Shown here in pieces: positions 34,608 through 40,597 of a stretch of DNA of 64,000 nt (the first letter of the stretch is position 1; each line of letters starts with the position of its first letter). The position numbers and the translations under genes were made by a program. The stretch spans positions 62,001-126,000 of the forward strand of contig JADZAS010000025.1 of NCBI GenBank assembly GCA_020852515.1, written 5' to 3'. The notes under the pieces are model-generated. The model made no database searches. It was not told the origin of the DNA and was given only the letters and a program-made list of their open reading frames with translations. Source of the stretch: Phycisphaerales bacterium (GTDB lineage: Bacteria; Planctomycetota; Phycisphaerae; Phycisphaerales; UBA5793).

Positions 34608-35591
34608 ATGATTCTCGCACTGGCAGTTTCAGTCGCCCTCTCCGCCACGCCCCTCACGCCTGAGCGGCTCTATTACCAGATCGACCGGGCCATGCCCATT
34701 GCCGTCGAGGCCGGCGAGAGCCGCGAACTGGCGCTGCTCAAGCCCGACAACACGCTCATCACGCGCGTCAACGTGCCCAATGACGCCACGGCGGTCGATC
34801 TCAACATTCTCATTCCCGATCTCTACTCAAATACCGAGGTTTGTTACCTGCAGCTGCTCGAGCGCGGCGAGCCGACCGGCGCAGCGCTGCTGCTCGAGCC
34901 GCTCGTCGAGCGGCCCAAACCCGTGCTGCGCTACGGCGAGCGCGGCCCCGTCGTGGACAACTGGATGCGGCCAAGCCCCGATCAACTCTCCATGGCGGGC
35001 TTTCGAGTCTCCGTCGAGCGCGATGTCGTGCTCCACACGACCATGGGCAACATCCGGATGGTGATGCGGCCCGACATGGCGCCCAACTCGGCGTGGAACT
35101 TCACCAGCCTCGTCGACGGCGGCTTTTACACGCACATACCCTTCCACCGCATCATCGGCAACACGCCCAGCGGCAAGGGCTTTGTCATCCAGGCCGGCGA
35201 TCCGACCGGCACCGGCACCGGCGGCCCGGGCTACAGCATCGATCTCGAACCCAGCACGCTGCCTCATGATCTCGGCGTCATCAGCATGGCGCGCGAAGGC
35301 GGCAACGTCGATACCGGCGGCAGCCAGTTCTTCATCTGCCTCTCGCGCGAGATGACCGCCAGGCTCGACGGGCAGTACACCTCATTCGGCCAGACGATCG
35401 AAGGGCTGGACGTAGTGGGCAAACTCGGCGCTGTGCCGACGGGCGCCGAAGACCGGCCGCTCACGATGCCTTACATCGAGACAGCCGAACTCGTGCCGGC
35501 GTCCCCGCGGTCGCCCGGCGTCAAGCCGAGTTGGATGGCCCAGAAGGCGGAGTCTAAGCCCGAGCCGCCGCCGGCGAATCCGCAGCGGTGA
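34608..35591 (+). CDS. Secreted cyclophilin-type peptidyl-prolyl isomerase
   Basis: The 327-residue product has a short signal peptide (ALAVSVALSATPL), a ~115-residue N-terminal domain of unknown type, then a cyclophilin domain (about 140-300). That domain shows F-H-R-I-I-G, F-V-I-Q-A-G-D-P-T-G-T-G-T-G-G-P-G-Y, G-V-I-S-M-A-R and S-Q-F-F-I-C-L-S. A Pro/Lys-rich tail follows. Export to the periplasm and folding of secreted proteins is the expected role. The catalytic Arg in FHR and the QAGD segment are present. The frame is open far upstream but only ATG 34608 has an AAGGAG site. Confidence 0.88.
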   Translation: MILALAVSVALSATPLTPERLYYQIDRAMPIAVEAGESRELALLKPDNTLITRVNVPNDATAVDLNILIPDLYSNTEVCYLQLLERGEPTGAALLLEPLVERPKPVLRYGERGPVVDNWMRPSPDQLSMAGFRVSVERDVVLHTTMGNIRMVMRPDMAPNSAWNFTSLVDGGFYTHIPFHRIIGNTPSGKGFVIQAGDPTGTGTGGPGYSIDLEPSTLPHDLGVISMAREGGNVDTGGSQFFICLSREMTARLDGQYTSFGQTIEGLDVVGKLGAVPTGAEDRPLTMPYIETAELVPASPRSPGVKPSWMAQKAESKPEPPPANPQR

Positions 35592-35843
35592 ACGTAACGG
35601 CTCGCCCTGCATCTAGTTCACCTTCCTCTGTCCCTAGCTTGTTTGCGCCAAGGTGTCAAAGCAGTCATGGCATAGCCACTACCTCTCCAACAGACTGAGG
35701 GCCCCGTTGCGGCCGCTTGAGTGCCGGCAGGTGACTTTCTGGAACTACTTGATTGTCGCATGCGAAAGCGCATGTGCCTTCAAGTGAAGTTCCGAGGCCG
35801 CGAGCCCGGTTGCACGAAGGGCACAGCGAAGAAGGAGAGTGTC

Positions 35844-37358
35844 ATGAGTTCCGTTCGGACTGTTGGTCTCGCTGCTTTCGCAGTCGTCGCGTTGTTGGTT
35901 GGTATCGCTTCTGCGCAGCCATGCGCCCCCGGCTGGGACGCGGCATTTGCCGAGAAGGGCGCCGACAGAAAGGTGTGGGCGTTCCTGGAGTTTGATGACG
36001 GGTCGGGCCCGGCTCTCTACGCCGGAGGTGATTTCACCACGATCGGCGGCGAGCTCGCCTCGGGACTGGCCAAGTGGGATGGTCATCGTTGGACCGAAGT
36101 TGGCGACGGCGTGAGCTTCGACGGTTCGCCCGGGCAGGTGCGCAGCCTGGCCACATGGGACGATGGAAGCGGGCCGGCGATCTACGTCGGAGGATGGTTC
36201 GACCACGCCGGAGGCGTCGCCGCGAACCATGTGGCGAAGTGGGACGGCCGTGAATGGTCGGCACTTGGTGGCGGAACTGGCGGCTACGTCCAGTCTTTCG
36301 GTGTGTACGACGACGGACGCGGCGAAGCGCTCTATGCAGGAGGCTTTTTCCGAAGCGCCGGCGGCATCGCTGCAGAGCACATCGCGCGCTGGGACGGGCA
36401 GAGATGGGAAGCGCTGGGTGAAGGTCTGACGTTTGATGCCGTCGGAGTGCTGACGATGGCAGTCTTCGAGGATTCCCAAGGTCGCGGGCTGTTTGTCGGC
36501 GGCGGATTCACATACGCCGGCGCGGTTGCCGCACACTACTTCGCTCGATGGGATGGTCGTGAATGGTTATCGCCAGATGGCGATACACTGCGACGTCGGT
36601 CGGAGGGCCAGATCGGGCACGTCGATCAACTCGTCGTCTGGGATGACGGGAACGGGCCCGCGCTCTATGTCGCAGGTGAATTCCAGGATCAGGAGGGCAA
36701 CGTCAGCCTGTTGCGCTGGGACGGAGCGTCGTTCACGGCTCTTCCCGGCATCGAGATTTCACCTGCATCGCACATCGCTGAATTGGTCACTCGTGTCGAA
36801 GACTCGCGAGAAGTTCTCTACGCCGGAAGTAACGGCACCATCGTGCTCCTCAACCCCAGGCGGGCAACTTGTGTTGCCCGCTTTGACGGTCGAGCGTGGC
36901 TTGCGCCCCTTTCCTTCCCTGTGCCGAACGTGTTTGCCCTGCAGTTCTTCAACGACGGGTTTGGCGAAGCCCTCTATGTCGGCGGCGATTTGCGCCTTAT
37001 GCAGCCCGAGAGTACATTTATCCACAACATCACGCGCTGGAGCGCACCGCACATGGCGCTTCAGCACACGGCTCTTCGCGCCGGGCAGCCGGCGCGTTTC
37101 AGCACGACCTGCGCTACACCCGGCGGCCGGGTCTACTTCACCTACAGCACGACGGGCCTGGGTTCGTTCTTTGTGCCGCAATTGAATGTGACGCTTGATC
37201 TCGACGCGCCGCACCTGGCCGGCAGCGGGGTGGCCAACCAGGACGGCAGGGCGGAGCTGATCCGCAGGATTCCGCCTGATGCCTCCGGGCGAACCGTCTA
37301 TCTCCAGGCCGCCGAGCAGGGGCGCAAGAGCGAGGTCGTCGAAGCGATGATTAAGTAG
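35844..37358 (+). CDS. Secreted beta-propeller-like repeat protein, copy 1
   Basis: The 504-residue protein has a signal peptide (FAVVALLVGIASAQ) and then about six repeats of roughly 55-60 residues. Each repeat holds W-D-D-G-x-G-P-A-L/I-Y-V/A-G-G-x-F and A-x-W-D-G-x-x-W, a pattern expected of propeller blades. The final ~95 residues are a separate module shared almost unchanged with copy 2. Function is unknown; extracellular binding is a guess. GAAGGAG at 35831-35837 precedes ATG 35844. It is first of a three-member tandem array with copy 2 (37586) and a remnant (39330). Confidence 0.7.
   Translation: MSSVRTVGLAAFAVVALLVGIASAQPCAPGWDAAFAEKGADRKVWAFLEFDDGSGPALYAGGDFTTIGGELASGLAKWDGHRWTEVGDGVSFDGSPGQVRSLATWDDGSGPAIYVGGWFDHAGGVAANHVAKWDGREWSALGGGTGGYVQSFGVYDDGRGEALYAGGFFRSAGGIAAEHIARWDGQRWEALGEGLTFDAVGVLTMAVFEDSQGRGLFVGGGFTYAGAVAAHYFARWDGREWLSPDGDTLRRRSEGQIGHVDQLVVWDDGNGPALYVAGEFQDQEGNVSLLRWDGASFTALPGIEISPASHIAELVTRVEDSREVLYAGSNGTIVLLNPRRATCVARFDGRAWLAPLSFPVPNVFALQFFNDGFGEALYVGGDLRLMQPESTFIHNITRWSAPHMALQHTALRAGQPARFSTTCATPGGRVYFTYSTTGLGSFFVPQLNVTLDLDAPHLAGSGVANQDGRAELIRRIPPDASGRTVYLQAAEQGRKSEVVEAMIK
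37062..37355 (+). repeat. Direct repeat, 3' module of copy 1
   Basis: A 294-base segment matching 38810-39103 without gaps and with about 20 mismatches by eye (~93% identity). It encodes the C-terminal module of both propeller proteins. The rest of the two genes is far less alike. Confidence 0.85.
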
Positions 37359-37441
37359 CGTCAGTTCGACTCCTCCCGTGCGACGCATCCAGGGTCCGCG
37401 ACGCGCAACCCGGGCTCTGTTTCCGTTCTGGCAATTTGCCC

Positions 37442-37470
37442 TTGCAATCCGGCTCAGGATCTGTTAGACT
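37442..37470 (+). promoter_or_regulatory. Promoter of propeller copy 2
   Basis: TTGCAA (37442-37447), 17-base spacer, TAGACT (37465-37470). A very similar arrangement precedes the remnant copy at 39167-39196, so the promoter was duplicated with the gene. Confidence 0.65.
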
Positions 37471-37585
37471 GATGTGATAGCTCCACGAGCCGCGCGAGGT
37501 CGCAATGACCCGCCCGAAAGCCGCTTCGTGGCGCCGGCTTGCCCCCGCGAGTCTGATGAAATCTCTCACCGAATAGGAGGCTGGT

Positions 37586-39106
37586 ATGGCGTTTCTGCTT
37601 CGGCCCATGGTGTTTTGTGCGGCAGCCTGCAGCCCACTCGTTGCACTTGTGCAACCCACATTCGCCCAATCGTGCGAGCCAGGTTGGGACGAATATTTCA
37701 AGGGGTCAGGTACAGTCGTCGAGGATTTGAAAGCGTTTGACGATGGAACCGGAGCGGCGCTTTATGTTGCAGGGCCATTCATTGAAATGCAAGGCCAGAG
37801 AGCATGGGGCCTCGCCAAGTGGGACGGGCACGAGTGGAGCGAAGTCGGAGGCGGACTTCAAAGGGATGAATTGCCGGGATTTGGATATGCGCTTTCGGTC
37901 TGGGATGACGGGCGCGGACCAGCGCTGTACGTCGGTGGGTCCTTTTCATCTGCTGGAGGAGTTGCCGCAAGCAACGTGGCCCGCTGGGATGGTCAGCATT
38001 GGGAGCCGCTGGGCGCCGGCACAAATGAGACTGTATTTTCTTTTGGCCAATTCGATGATGGACGTGGTCAAGCCCTCTACGTTGGTGGCCGGTTCGAACG
38101 TGCTGGCGACGTCGACGCGTTATCGATCGCGCGCTGGAATGGCGCGGAGTGGGAACCGCTTGAGAGCGGGCTTCCGAGCATCCCGCGTTGGCGGGGTGTG
38201 CGCACTATGACTGAATTTGATGATGGAACTGGTAATCGCCTGTACGTCGGGGGCGACTTCTACAGGAGCGATCCCGTCCGAACGCCTGGCGGCGGATTCC
38301 AGAAGGATCTTGCACGATGGGACGGGCGCGAATGGTCCAGCGTTCCCGGTGCTCCGCTGCGATCGCTGGGAGGTGGCTACGCGACCCATGTCGATCAATT
38401 GCTTGTGCACGACGATGGATTCGGCAAGGCTCTGTTCGTCACCGGGGGGTTTCTCACGCCGCTTGGCTCTCAGTGGGCAACCGGCTTCCTGCGATGGGAT
38501 GGGATCAATTGGACCGTGCCTGGGGGTGGGTTCGTCCAAAGCTACTCGCACCCCGACGCAATGGCCGTATTTGACAGTGGGAGTGGACCAGAGCTCTGGA
38601 TTGGCGGCGGTAGTATCGGATTGATGAAATCGCGAGAATACGGCTACGTGTTCCGGTGGAATGGTCTGGAGCTGACGCGAGTCAAGCCGTACCCCAGAGT
38701 TCAGTGGGTTAACGTGCTGTTGCCTTTCAATGACGGCTACGGGCTGGCGCTTTACCTGGGAGATGAGTACTCGGCAGTTCAGCGCTGGGCCGTGCCGCAT
38801 ATGACGGTGCAGCACACGCCCCTTCGCGCCGGGCAGCCGGCGCGTTTCAGCACGACCTGTGCCACACCCGGCGGCCGGGTCTACTTCACCTACAGCACGA
38901 CGGGTCTGGGCTCGTTCTTTGTGCCGCAACTGAATGTGACGCTTGATCTCGATGCGCCGCACCTGGCCGGCAGCGGGGTGGCCAACCAGGACGGCAAGGC
39001 GGAGCTGATCCGCAGGATTCCGCCTGATGCGGCCGGGCGAACCGTCCATCTCCAGGCCGCCGAGCAGGGGCGCAAGAGTGAAGTGGTTGAAGCGGTCATT
39101 GAATAG
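37586..39106 (+). CDS. Secreted beta-propeller-like repeat protein, copy 2
   Basis: A 506-residue paralogue of the preceding gene, with the same plan: signal peptide ending T-F-A-Q, F-D-D-G-x-G-x-A-L-Y-V-G-G and A-R-W-D-G/N-x-x-W repeats, then the conserved C-terminal module G-R-V-Y-F-T-Y-S-T-T-G ... A-A-E-Q-G-R-K-S-E-V-V-E. The repeat region has diverged while the C-terminal module remains about 93% identical at DNA level, suggesting recent duplication or gene conversion of the 3' end. AGGAGG at 37577-37582 lies just before the ATG. Function unknown. Confidence 0.7.
   Translation: MAFLLRPMVFCAAACSPLVALVQPTFAQSCEPGWDEYFKGSGTVVEDLKAFDDGTGAALYVAGPFIEMQGQRAWGLAKWDGHEWSEVGGGLQRDELPGFGYALSVWDDGRGPALYVGGSFSSAGGVAASNVARWDGQHWEPLGAGTNETVFSFGQFDDGRGQALYVGGRFERAGDVDALSIARWNGAEWEPLESGLPSIPRWRGVRTMTEFDDGTGNRLYVGGDFYRSDPVRTPGGGFQKDLARWDGREWSSVPGAPLRSLGGGYATHVDQLLVHDDGFGKALFVTGGFLTPLGSQWATGFLRWDGINWTVPGGGFVQSYSHPDAMAVFDSGSGPELWIGGGSIGLMKSREYGYVFRWNGLELTRVKPYPRVQWVNVLLPFNDGYGLALYLGDEYSAVQRWAVPHMTVQHTPLRAGQPARFSTTCATPGGRVYFTYSTTGLGSFFVPQLNVTLDLDAPHLAGSGVANQDGKAELIRRIPPDAAGRTVHLQAAEQGRKSEVVEAVIE
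38810..39103 (+). repeat. Direct repeat, 3' module of copy 2
   Basis: Partner of 37062-37355; same length, no gaps. The last ~100 bases recur a third time in the remnant at 39471-39573. Confidence 0.85.
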
Positions 39107-39166
39107 CAGTGGCCGGGACGCTGGATCGGCTTCTGGGTTAATTTTTGCCAACTTCCCGGATTTTGC

Positions 39167-39196
39167 TTGCAATCCCGGCGGGCTGCAGGTTATTCT
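39167..39196 (+). promoter_or_regulatory. Promoter upstream of the propeller remnant
   Basis: TTGCAA (39167-39172), 18-base spacer, TATTCT (39191-39196). It resembles the copy 2 promoter in sequence and context (CTTGCAATCC in both). Confidence 0.55.
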
Positions 39197-39329
39197 GAAC
39201 GCAGCCATTCGATTGCGCAGATTCGGGCACGCACAGGCCCGGGCGCAGCCGGATGAAGTGCACCGGGAAATTGCCCGCTCCGCCCGCGAGGCAGGGCCGC
39301 GCGAACATCCTGCAAATAAGGAGGTTGCC

Positions 39330-39573
39330 ATGGCTTCCGTTCGACATGTTGCGCCAATGGCGATGGCCGCTCTTGTCGTGTTTGCTTACCGTCGCGTCAG
39401 CCGAGTCGCGCGCCCGGTTGCGTTGCGACGTTTCCTGGACAGGCGGTGCCGACAGGACCGTGTCAGCGCGGCTGATCCGCAGGATTCCGCCAGATGCGGC
39501 CGGCCGGACCGTCTATCTCCAGGCCGCCGAGCAGGGGCGCAAGAGCGAAGTGGTTGAAGCGATGATCGAGTAG
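39330..39573 (+). pseudogene. Remnant third copy of the propeller family (internally deleted, frameshifted)
   Basis: An excellent AAGGAGG ribosome site is followed by ATG 39330 and a start like the other copies (MASVRHVAPMAMAALVVFA against MSSVRTVGLAAFAVVALL). The frame then goes astray. From 39471 another frame encodes the last ~34 residues of the family (LIRRIPPDAAGRTVYLQAAE onward) up to TAG 39571-39573. About 1.3 kb of repeat region is missing. An ATG at 39346 opens a short frame that runs in phase with the tail and has a signal-peptide-like start, so a small secreted product is possible, but decay by deletion is the simplest reading. Confidence 0.75.
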
Positions 39574-39606
39574 CGTCAGCGCGACTCCCCCCCGCGCGGC
39601 GCACCT

Positions 39607-39632
39607 AGCCCCGGGTCTCCGGGCCCGGGGCT
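39607..39632 (+). terminator. GC-rich hairpin after the propeller remnant
   Basis: AGCCCCGGG (39607-39615) pairs perfectly with CCCGGGGCT (39624-39632) around an 8-base loop, followed by CCCTCTTC. A likely transcription stop for the array. Confidence 0.45.
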
Positions 39633-39681
39633 CCCTCTTCAGATGGCGGCAATGCACCGGCGCGAAGTCGCCCATCTTAAC

Positions 39682-39704
39682 AAAAGGTGCCAGGTACCTT
39701 TTTT
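39682..39704. terminator. Intrinsic terminator between the propeller array and folD
   Basis: AAAAGGTGC (39682-39690) and GGTACCTTTT (39693-39702) form a near-perfect stem with one G-T pair and a tiny loop, followed by further T on the plus strand. It overlaps the folD stop codon, so it can act on both strands. Confidence 0.7.
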
Positions 39705-40584
39705 ATGGCCGGGCGGCGTCGACCGTGTTGCGCAGCAGCATGGCAACCGTCACCGGGCCCACGCCGCCGGGGACGGGTGAGATCCAGCCCGCCACGTTGC
39801 GCACCTCGTCGAACGCCACGTCGCCGACGACGCGCTTCTTACCGGTGGCCGGATCGAGCTGCCGGTTGATGCCGACATCCACGACCACCGCGCCGGGCTT
39901 GACCATGTCTGCGGTGATGAGCGCCGCTTTGCCGGCGGCGGCGACGAGCACATCCGCCTGCCGCGTCATGGCCGCCAGATCTTGCGTGTACTTGTTGCAA
40001 CTGTGCACCGTCGCCTCGCGCTGCATCATCAGGATGGCGACGGGTTTACCGACGATGTTGCTCGCGCCAACGCAGACCACTTCGCTGCCGCGCAGTTCGA
40101 CGCCCGTCGATTCGACCATCTTCATCACCGCCAGGGCGGTGCAGGGCACGAGCGACGAGCGGTCGTAGACGACGTTGCCGATGTTGGCGGGGTTGACGCC
40201 CTCGACGTCCTTGGCCGGGTCGATGAGCGACTGGACGCGATAGGGGTCGATGCCCTCGGGAAGGGGCATGTGCACCATGATGGCCGTCACGCGTTCATCG
40301 GTGCTGAGCAGCAGCACGCGGCCGGCGATGTCCTCGTAGGTGGCGGTGTGCGGCAGGACGTGCAAGCGATATTCGATTCCCAGTTCAGCGCAGCCGGCTT
40401 TCTGGTTTTCGGCGTAGATGCGGCCGCTGCTCTTGACGCCCGGCTCGCCATCGACGAGCACGGCGTCGAGCGAGACGGCTCGGCCACGGGCAATCGACTG
40501 CTCGACATCGCGCCGGATTTCGGCGCGGAACCGGTCCGCCAGAGCCCGCCCGTCGATGATTTGTGCGCCGCCAGAGCCGCTCAT
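39703..40584 (-). CDS. folD: Methylenetetrahydrofolate dehydrogenase / cyclohydrolase
   Basis: A bifunctional enzyme interconverting 5,10-methylene-, methenyl- and 10-formyl-THF. The ~293-residue product shows the catalytic Lys in Y-A-E-N-Q-K-A-G-C, the V-H-M-P-L-P-E-G-I-D segment, P-C-T-A-L-A-V-M, V-V-C-V-G-A-S-N-I-V-G-K-P for NADP, and P-G-G-V-G-P-V-T-V-A-M-L at the end. The GASNIVGKP loop (normally G-R-S) is slightly altered. Start 40584 is preferred because TATCAT sits seven bases upstream; an in-frame ATG at 40593 overlaps that box. It is divergent from the aminotransferase gene. Confidence 0.92.
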   Translation of the reverse strand: MSGSGGAQIIDGRALADRFRAEIRRDVEQSIARGRAVSLDAVLVDGEPGVKSSGRIYAENQKAGCAELGIEYRLHVLPHTATYEDIAGRVLLLSTDERVTAIMVHMPLPEGIDPYRVQSLIDPAKDVEGVNPANIGNVVYDRSSLVPCTALAVMKMVESTGVELRGSEVVCVGASNIVGKPVAILMMQREATVHSCNKYTQDLAAMTRQADVLVAAAGKAALITADMVKPGAVVVDVGINRQLDPATGKKRVVGDVAFDEVRNVAGWISPVPGGVGPVTVAMLLRNTVDAARP

Positions 40585-40591
40585 CGCCGAC

Positions 40592-40597
40592 ATGATA
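40592..40597 (-). promoter_or_regulatory. TATCAT -10-like hexamer for folD
   Basis: Minus strand TATCAT-GTCGGCG-ATG 40584. It lies only ten bases from the divergent TACACT box at 40608. Confidence 0.4.

Follow-up and report, generated by a model that had tools for sequence, protein, structure and literature searches.

Results

The window analysed here is a stretch of 64,000 nucleotides (nt) from a Phycisphaerales bacterium (assembly GCA_020852515.1, contig JADZAS010000025.1, positions 62,001 to 126,000). The genome is a draft assembly of 4.7 Mb in 39 contigs, the window lying within contig C25. On its plus strand, the window carries a tandem array of genes for secreted proteins, bounded by a cyclophilin-type peptidyl-prolyl isomerase gene on one side and by a folD-like gene on the other (39703-40593, minus strand), which from its sequence we take to be folD. 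Copy 1 (35844-37358, 504 amino acids) and copy 2 (37586-39106, 506 amino acids) are both open and intact, as an earlier note on this DNA had stated. Each begins with a signal peptide (identified by eye), continues with a body in which the unit 'FDDG..ALYVGG....RWDG..W' recurs and ends in a C-terminal tail domain of ~100 residues (37056-37358 in copy 1, 38804-39106 in copy 2). Sequence comparison supports the view that a third family unit, here called S, lies at 39330-39573, cut down to its two ends. We compared the locus across a genus sample of five genomes, namely the window's own (G000) and G001 to G004, and with G005, which belongs to the same family but another genus.

The bodies of copies 1 and 2 are predicted to be beta-propellers. 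In a structure model of copy 2, residues ~35-400 were modelled with confidence (mean predicted local distance difference test score, pLDDT, of 70.8 overall and below 50 in the tail). The strand pattern is propeller-like, with seven blades counted from the strands, and many of the best fold matches in the PDB were WD40 or other propellers; the global template modelling scores of the matches were modest, partly since the tail was unmodelled. Matches to the Pfam families DUF5122 (PF17164) and Rax2 (PF12768), those of copy 1 among them, fell just short of the curated cut-offs, the best scores being 26.5 bits (cut-off 27) and 26.8 bits (cut-off 28.8), respectively. Between the two bodies, identity is 47% at the protein level and 51% at the DNA level, a divergence close to that of most other paralogue pairs in the genus, whereas the tails are 94% and 93% identical. 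The duplication behind copies 1 and 2 is therefore old, with only the tails kept alike, and the body divergence rules out that the two are recent duplicates.

The leader of S (39117-39329) comprises the 3' spacer, a promoter-like TTGCAA-18-TATTCT 133 nt before the ATG, an untranslated leader and a perfect AAGGAGG at 39318-39324. This ribosome-binding site, noted earlier together with the signal-peptide start, lies 5 bases 5' of ATG 39330 and is the sole AAGGAGG on the plus strand in 35001-40000. The earlier note also saw in S a promoter of the same layout as in the other copies, which holds loosely for copy 2 (TTGCAA-17-TAGACT, 115 nt before its ATG), but no comparable pair was found 5' of copy 1, and a strict sigma-70 scan of the region found 0 sites against 0.7 expected. 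The leader matches that of copy 1 weakly (75% over 40 nt, E 0.003) and the region upstream of a full-length G001 copy at 70% over ~125 nt (E 4e-5 to 6e-5). Being closest to the G001 leaders, S appears to derive from another cassette rather than from copy 1 or 2.

The signal peptide remnant and the first ~45 codons occupy 39330-39471 and are followed by the family's final 102 bases (39472-39573), which would encode about the last three of the seven tail strands in a low-confidence model. These bases match copy 1 (E 1e-44 in a 133-nt stretch) and copy 2 (91% over 104 nt, E 4e-39) far above chance, bearing out the earlier description of a third copy reduced to two ends with a tail of ~100 bases. 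Both ends of S are homologous to the family and the core is missing, as in a truncated pseudogene, with a strong match at the 3' end and a weak but present one in the 5' leader.

The frame that opens at ATG 39330 begins MASVRHVAPMAMAALVVFA..., a signal-peptide start, and runs for 75 codons in the window, out of phase with the tail. The neighbouring frame contains TVASAES, a cleavage-like end, then, just before the junction, GADRTVSA, similar to the GADRKVWA of copy 1; it stays in phase as it enters the tail, which reads LIRRIPPDAAGR...EAMIE. Because the codons before the junction are in phase with the tail, the large deletion in S was seemingly in phase, and the frameshift would lie upstream in the signal peptide, near 39387, where it is common to the window and G004; this position was derived by comparison with copy 1, no full-length version of S having been found. 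That S jumps out of frame to its tail, as previously proposed, is thus correct for the frame of ATG 39330 but not for the codons at the junction. The alternative ATG at 39346 does give 75 residues in phase with the tail in the window, with no ribosome-binding site just upstream.

S is present in two of the five genus genomes, the window's own and G004. The other three lack S, and at the same place intact copies number two in G001 and one each in G002 and G003; at the thresholds used, G005 has neither S nor a propeller gene. The S sequences of the window and G004 are 94-95% identical in DNA over ~450-515 nt and their junctions are the same to within one base. The order of the array differs, being 1-2-S in the window and A-S-2 in G004, where S thus sits between the pair of intact genes instead of behind it. 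Over 39117-39471 the two are separated by six substitutions and four single-base insertions or deletions (indels), with one further indel at 39472; the body of copy 2 aligns between the same genomes with 0 gaps in 1205 nt. The indel at 39472 lets the ATG 39330 frame of G004 run on into the tail, for 80 residues in all, and makes the 39346 frame of that genome meet a stop at the junction, whereas in the window it is the 39346 frame that enters the tail instead. Between these two genomes, no frame of S is kept, as in a truncated pseudogene. Within 39330-39471, the substitutions change residues in 3/3 cases in the ATG 39330 frame and in 2/3 in the other (~71-73% expected without selection); three substitutions are no proof of neutrality, and they show no sign of constraint. 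A small secreted peptide would be expected to keep the same frame and ribosome-binding site under purifying selection, and this pattern was not found. According to the earlier note, S would have to count as a real small gene if a related genome conserved this short form under selection; the form occurs in one of the four congeners, and its frame is not conserved there.

The S-specific DNA (39117-39471, 355 nt) is 97.5% identical between the window and G004. The baseline for this comparison, 5991 overlapping 300-nt windows covering the alignable part of the 64 kb, averages 88%, with its 99th percentile at 97.7%. Identity is uneven along the locus: 97% over 39117-39318, 90% in the spacer before copy 2 and 76% over 39640-39702. 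In copy 2 the middle is ~99% identical to G004, and the first and last body bins differ by ~12-18%. The near-identical tract at 38041-38540, with 300-nt windows reaching 99.3%, has two nucleotide differences in 118 codons, none of them synonymous. A tract without synonymous change indicates recent exchange between lineages at this locus, and such exchange would also explain the high identity of S, whose change of position needs recombination in any case. We therefore set aside the conservation of S as proof of function, since the copy 2 tract is equally or more identical without synonymous change.

Codon alignments of the intact copies, two from the window and two from G004, gave 43-48% amino acid identity in the bodies and 87-94% in the tails; the copy 2 pair alone is orthologous, with 90% in the body. 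In 30-codon bins, the jump in identity coincides with the border of the tail. Inside S, the tail of the window's copy matches G004 S at 63/64 positions before 39537, at 27/37 after it and at 47/56 past the stop codon, and it matches G004 copy 2 at 61/64, 35/37 and 55/56, respectively. From ~39536 onwards, the window S follows the sequence that precedes folD as in G004 copy 2. This switch of the best match near 39537 points to an apparent recombination breakpoint inside the S tail. We also compared tails and bodies in four other arrays (L073-L076). Among the tandem secreted proteins of L073 (G000:C15:420000-431000), one neighbour pair is 97% identical in the tail and 62% in the body, and in L074 (G001:C33:66500-76500) all 10 pairs share 71-78% in the tail and 25-34% in the body.

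The tail domain extends far beyond this array. Copy 1 matches 91 places in its own genome, of which 89, counting copies 1, 2 and S, fall on the C-terminal domain and two on the body only. In 24 of the 26 places inspected (L004-L030), the domain ends at most four residues from the stop codon, and the proteins that carry it resemble proteases, carboxypeptidases, sialidase-like repeats and others (functions and secretion judged by eye). The tail is thus a C-terminal domain that ends at the stop of many unrelated secreted proteins and, by its sequence distribution, looks like a sorting or anchoring domain. A tail profile detected 119, 113, 72, 110 and at least 149 members in G001, G002, G003, G004 and G005, respectively, with at most 150 candidates scored per genome, which makes most of these counts lower bounds. 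Among 199 genomes drawn from the phylum, the domain was found in 18, the window's own included, with none in 8 of the same order and none in 4 of the same class; up to 24 candidates were scored per genome, and weak cases may be missed. Alignment of 22 members matched no Pfam or NCBIfam family in earnest (single members only, E 0.013 or worse), and comparison with solved structures gave no match (best E 0.66). PHROGs returned two weak matches without function. Modelled alone, the domain was of low confidence (mean pLDDT 55.5), with seven strands, and is probably all-beta. The SprA model TIGR04189 was silent in 3/3 genomes and in 14/14 controls, and is hence uninformative on type IX secretion. 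The portions of the literature covered by our search held no description of the tail domain or of such an array in Planctomycetota.

Two further observations concern the flanks of the array. In the 3' half of the cyclophilin gene (35151-35590), identity to G004 reaches ~98% in 300-nt windows and far exceeds the mean for the region. Constraint could account for this, as could the border of a tract that was exchanged. Just 3' of S, at 39684-39700, lies a palindrome-like 17-base repeat, AAGGTGCCAGGTACCTT, presumably similar to repetitive extragenic palindromic (REP) elements. This genome holds nine copies of the repeat; 12 relatives had none, and a reversed control gave none either.

Discussion

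S is shared by two species in which the order of the array has changed and its frames are unlike; the tails around it are homogenised and identity along the locus is a mosaic. We infer that homologous recombination in the tails is the cause, and that S is without function. S is probably a decayed, non-coding cassette of a tandem secreted beta-propeller array, carried along as the homologous tails recombine. The cassette would be a unit of spacer, promoter, leader, signal peptide, body and tail domain, and the near-identical tails would act as homologous handles through which crossing-over or gene conversion moves, replaces or exchanges the parts upstream, also between species. In S, an internal deletion, probably in phase, would have removed most of the body and the larger part of the tail domain, and the signal peptide would have been frameshifted; the remnant would later have been carried, along with the array, to positions that differ between the two sister species. 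The earlier proposal of a duplication followed by internal deletion is retained here as to the truncation. Its snapshot of a duplication is not, given the divergent bodies and like tails of copies 1 and 2 and the apparent derivation of S from another cassette.

Several points weigh against this interpretation. The identity of S stands at the 99th percentile of the baseline, and constraint on an RNA or on the leader would give the same; G004 keeps an 80-codon frame with a ribosome-binding site; and S is known from two draft assemblies only, in which any of the single-base indels may stem from faulty sequencing. In the other arrays, homogenisation of tails was seen in 0/6 pairs of L075, and the effect is absent or modest for most pairs in L073 and L076 (modest in 3/6 pairs of L076).

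The frame in G004, the 75 codons open in the window, the perfect AAGGAGG 5 nt before the ATG and a leader more conserved than its surroundings would all suit S being a real small gene, coding for a peptide of 75-80 residues that is secreted or sits in the membrane, and equipped with the family promoter, a ribosome-binding site and the last tail strands. We nevertheless consider this unlikely, and rejected it on the comparison of frames between the window and G004: the frame that enters the tail is not common to both species, and the one that does so in the window, from ATG 39346, has no ribosome-binding site just upstream and stops at the junction in G004. Synonymous changes are also not in excess, the tail domain survives only at its end, and three of the five genus genomes lack S. 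The higher identity of 39117-39318 than of the spacer before copy 2 and of 39640-39702 could instead mean that the array has, in this leader, a conserved promoter element or regulatory RNA, with the coding remnant incidental. An Rfam search of the leader identified no family, its single match scoring 19 bits against a gathering score of 50, and on this ground we rejected a regulatory RNA. With no strict sigma-70 site, four single-base indels within the leader and recent exchange able to account for its identity, given the copy 2 tract, a regulatory leader seems quite improbable. Assemblers can be misled by tandem homologous tails, and the window comes from a draft in 39 contigs; S is, however, present independently in the G004 assembly, 97.5% identical and with the same junction to within one base, making an assembly artefact very improbable.

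As a decayed cassette, S is in itself a case of ordinary decay and has its value as a marker. Its change of position and the breakpoint in its tail let one trace the rearrangement of a row of surface-protein genes, and point to a large C-terminal domain family that has no Pfam or NCBIfam model and may define an unrecognised route of export or anchoring. The tail domain is the more interesting object of the two. It is tempting to speculate, although we hold this only tentatively, that the domain serves twice, as a sorting or anchoring module of the protein and as a DNA handle for swapping whole bodies of neighbours within and between species. The arrays would then be cassette-exchange loci for surface propeller proteins, with S a travelling 'empty' cassette.

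Parts of this arrangement resemble known systems. The bodies are like DUF5122 and Rax2 beta-propellers in their weak matches and in the propeller model, all matches being under the curated cut-offs. PEP-CTERM/EpsH and GlyGly-CTERM are described, in the excerpts consulted, as C-terminal sorting signals (PMC1569441, PMC3237569); like them, the tail is one C-terminal homology region on many otherwise unrelated exported proteins per genome, but it differs in being a domain of ~100 residues with a probably all-beta fold, and partner machinery for it was not found. Polymorphic toxin systems, as outlined in the cited excerpt, likewise combine a constant part with exchangeable cassettes in a secreted-protein locus (PMC3482391). 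In the present array, it is the C-terminus that is constant and the body that varies; toxin and immunity genes were not searched for. The surface proteins vlsE and pilE undergo gene conversion from silent cassettes (PMC2632889, PMC4023411, in the sections available), and the array resembles them in its tandem sequences for surface proteins, partial copies included, which would recombine by homology. An expression site with silent donors was not seen here, and the bodies are only ~47% identical, so that exchange would need the tails. S resembles in form a truncated tandem paralogue, a pseudogene in an array under concerted evolution, having kept both ends, lost its core and become frameshifted among neighbours with homogenised tails; unlike such a pseudogene, it has moved within the array and stands at different positions in two species.

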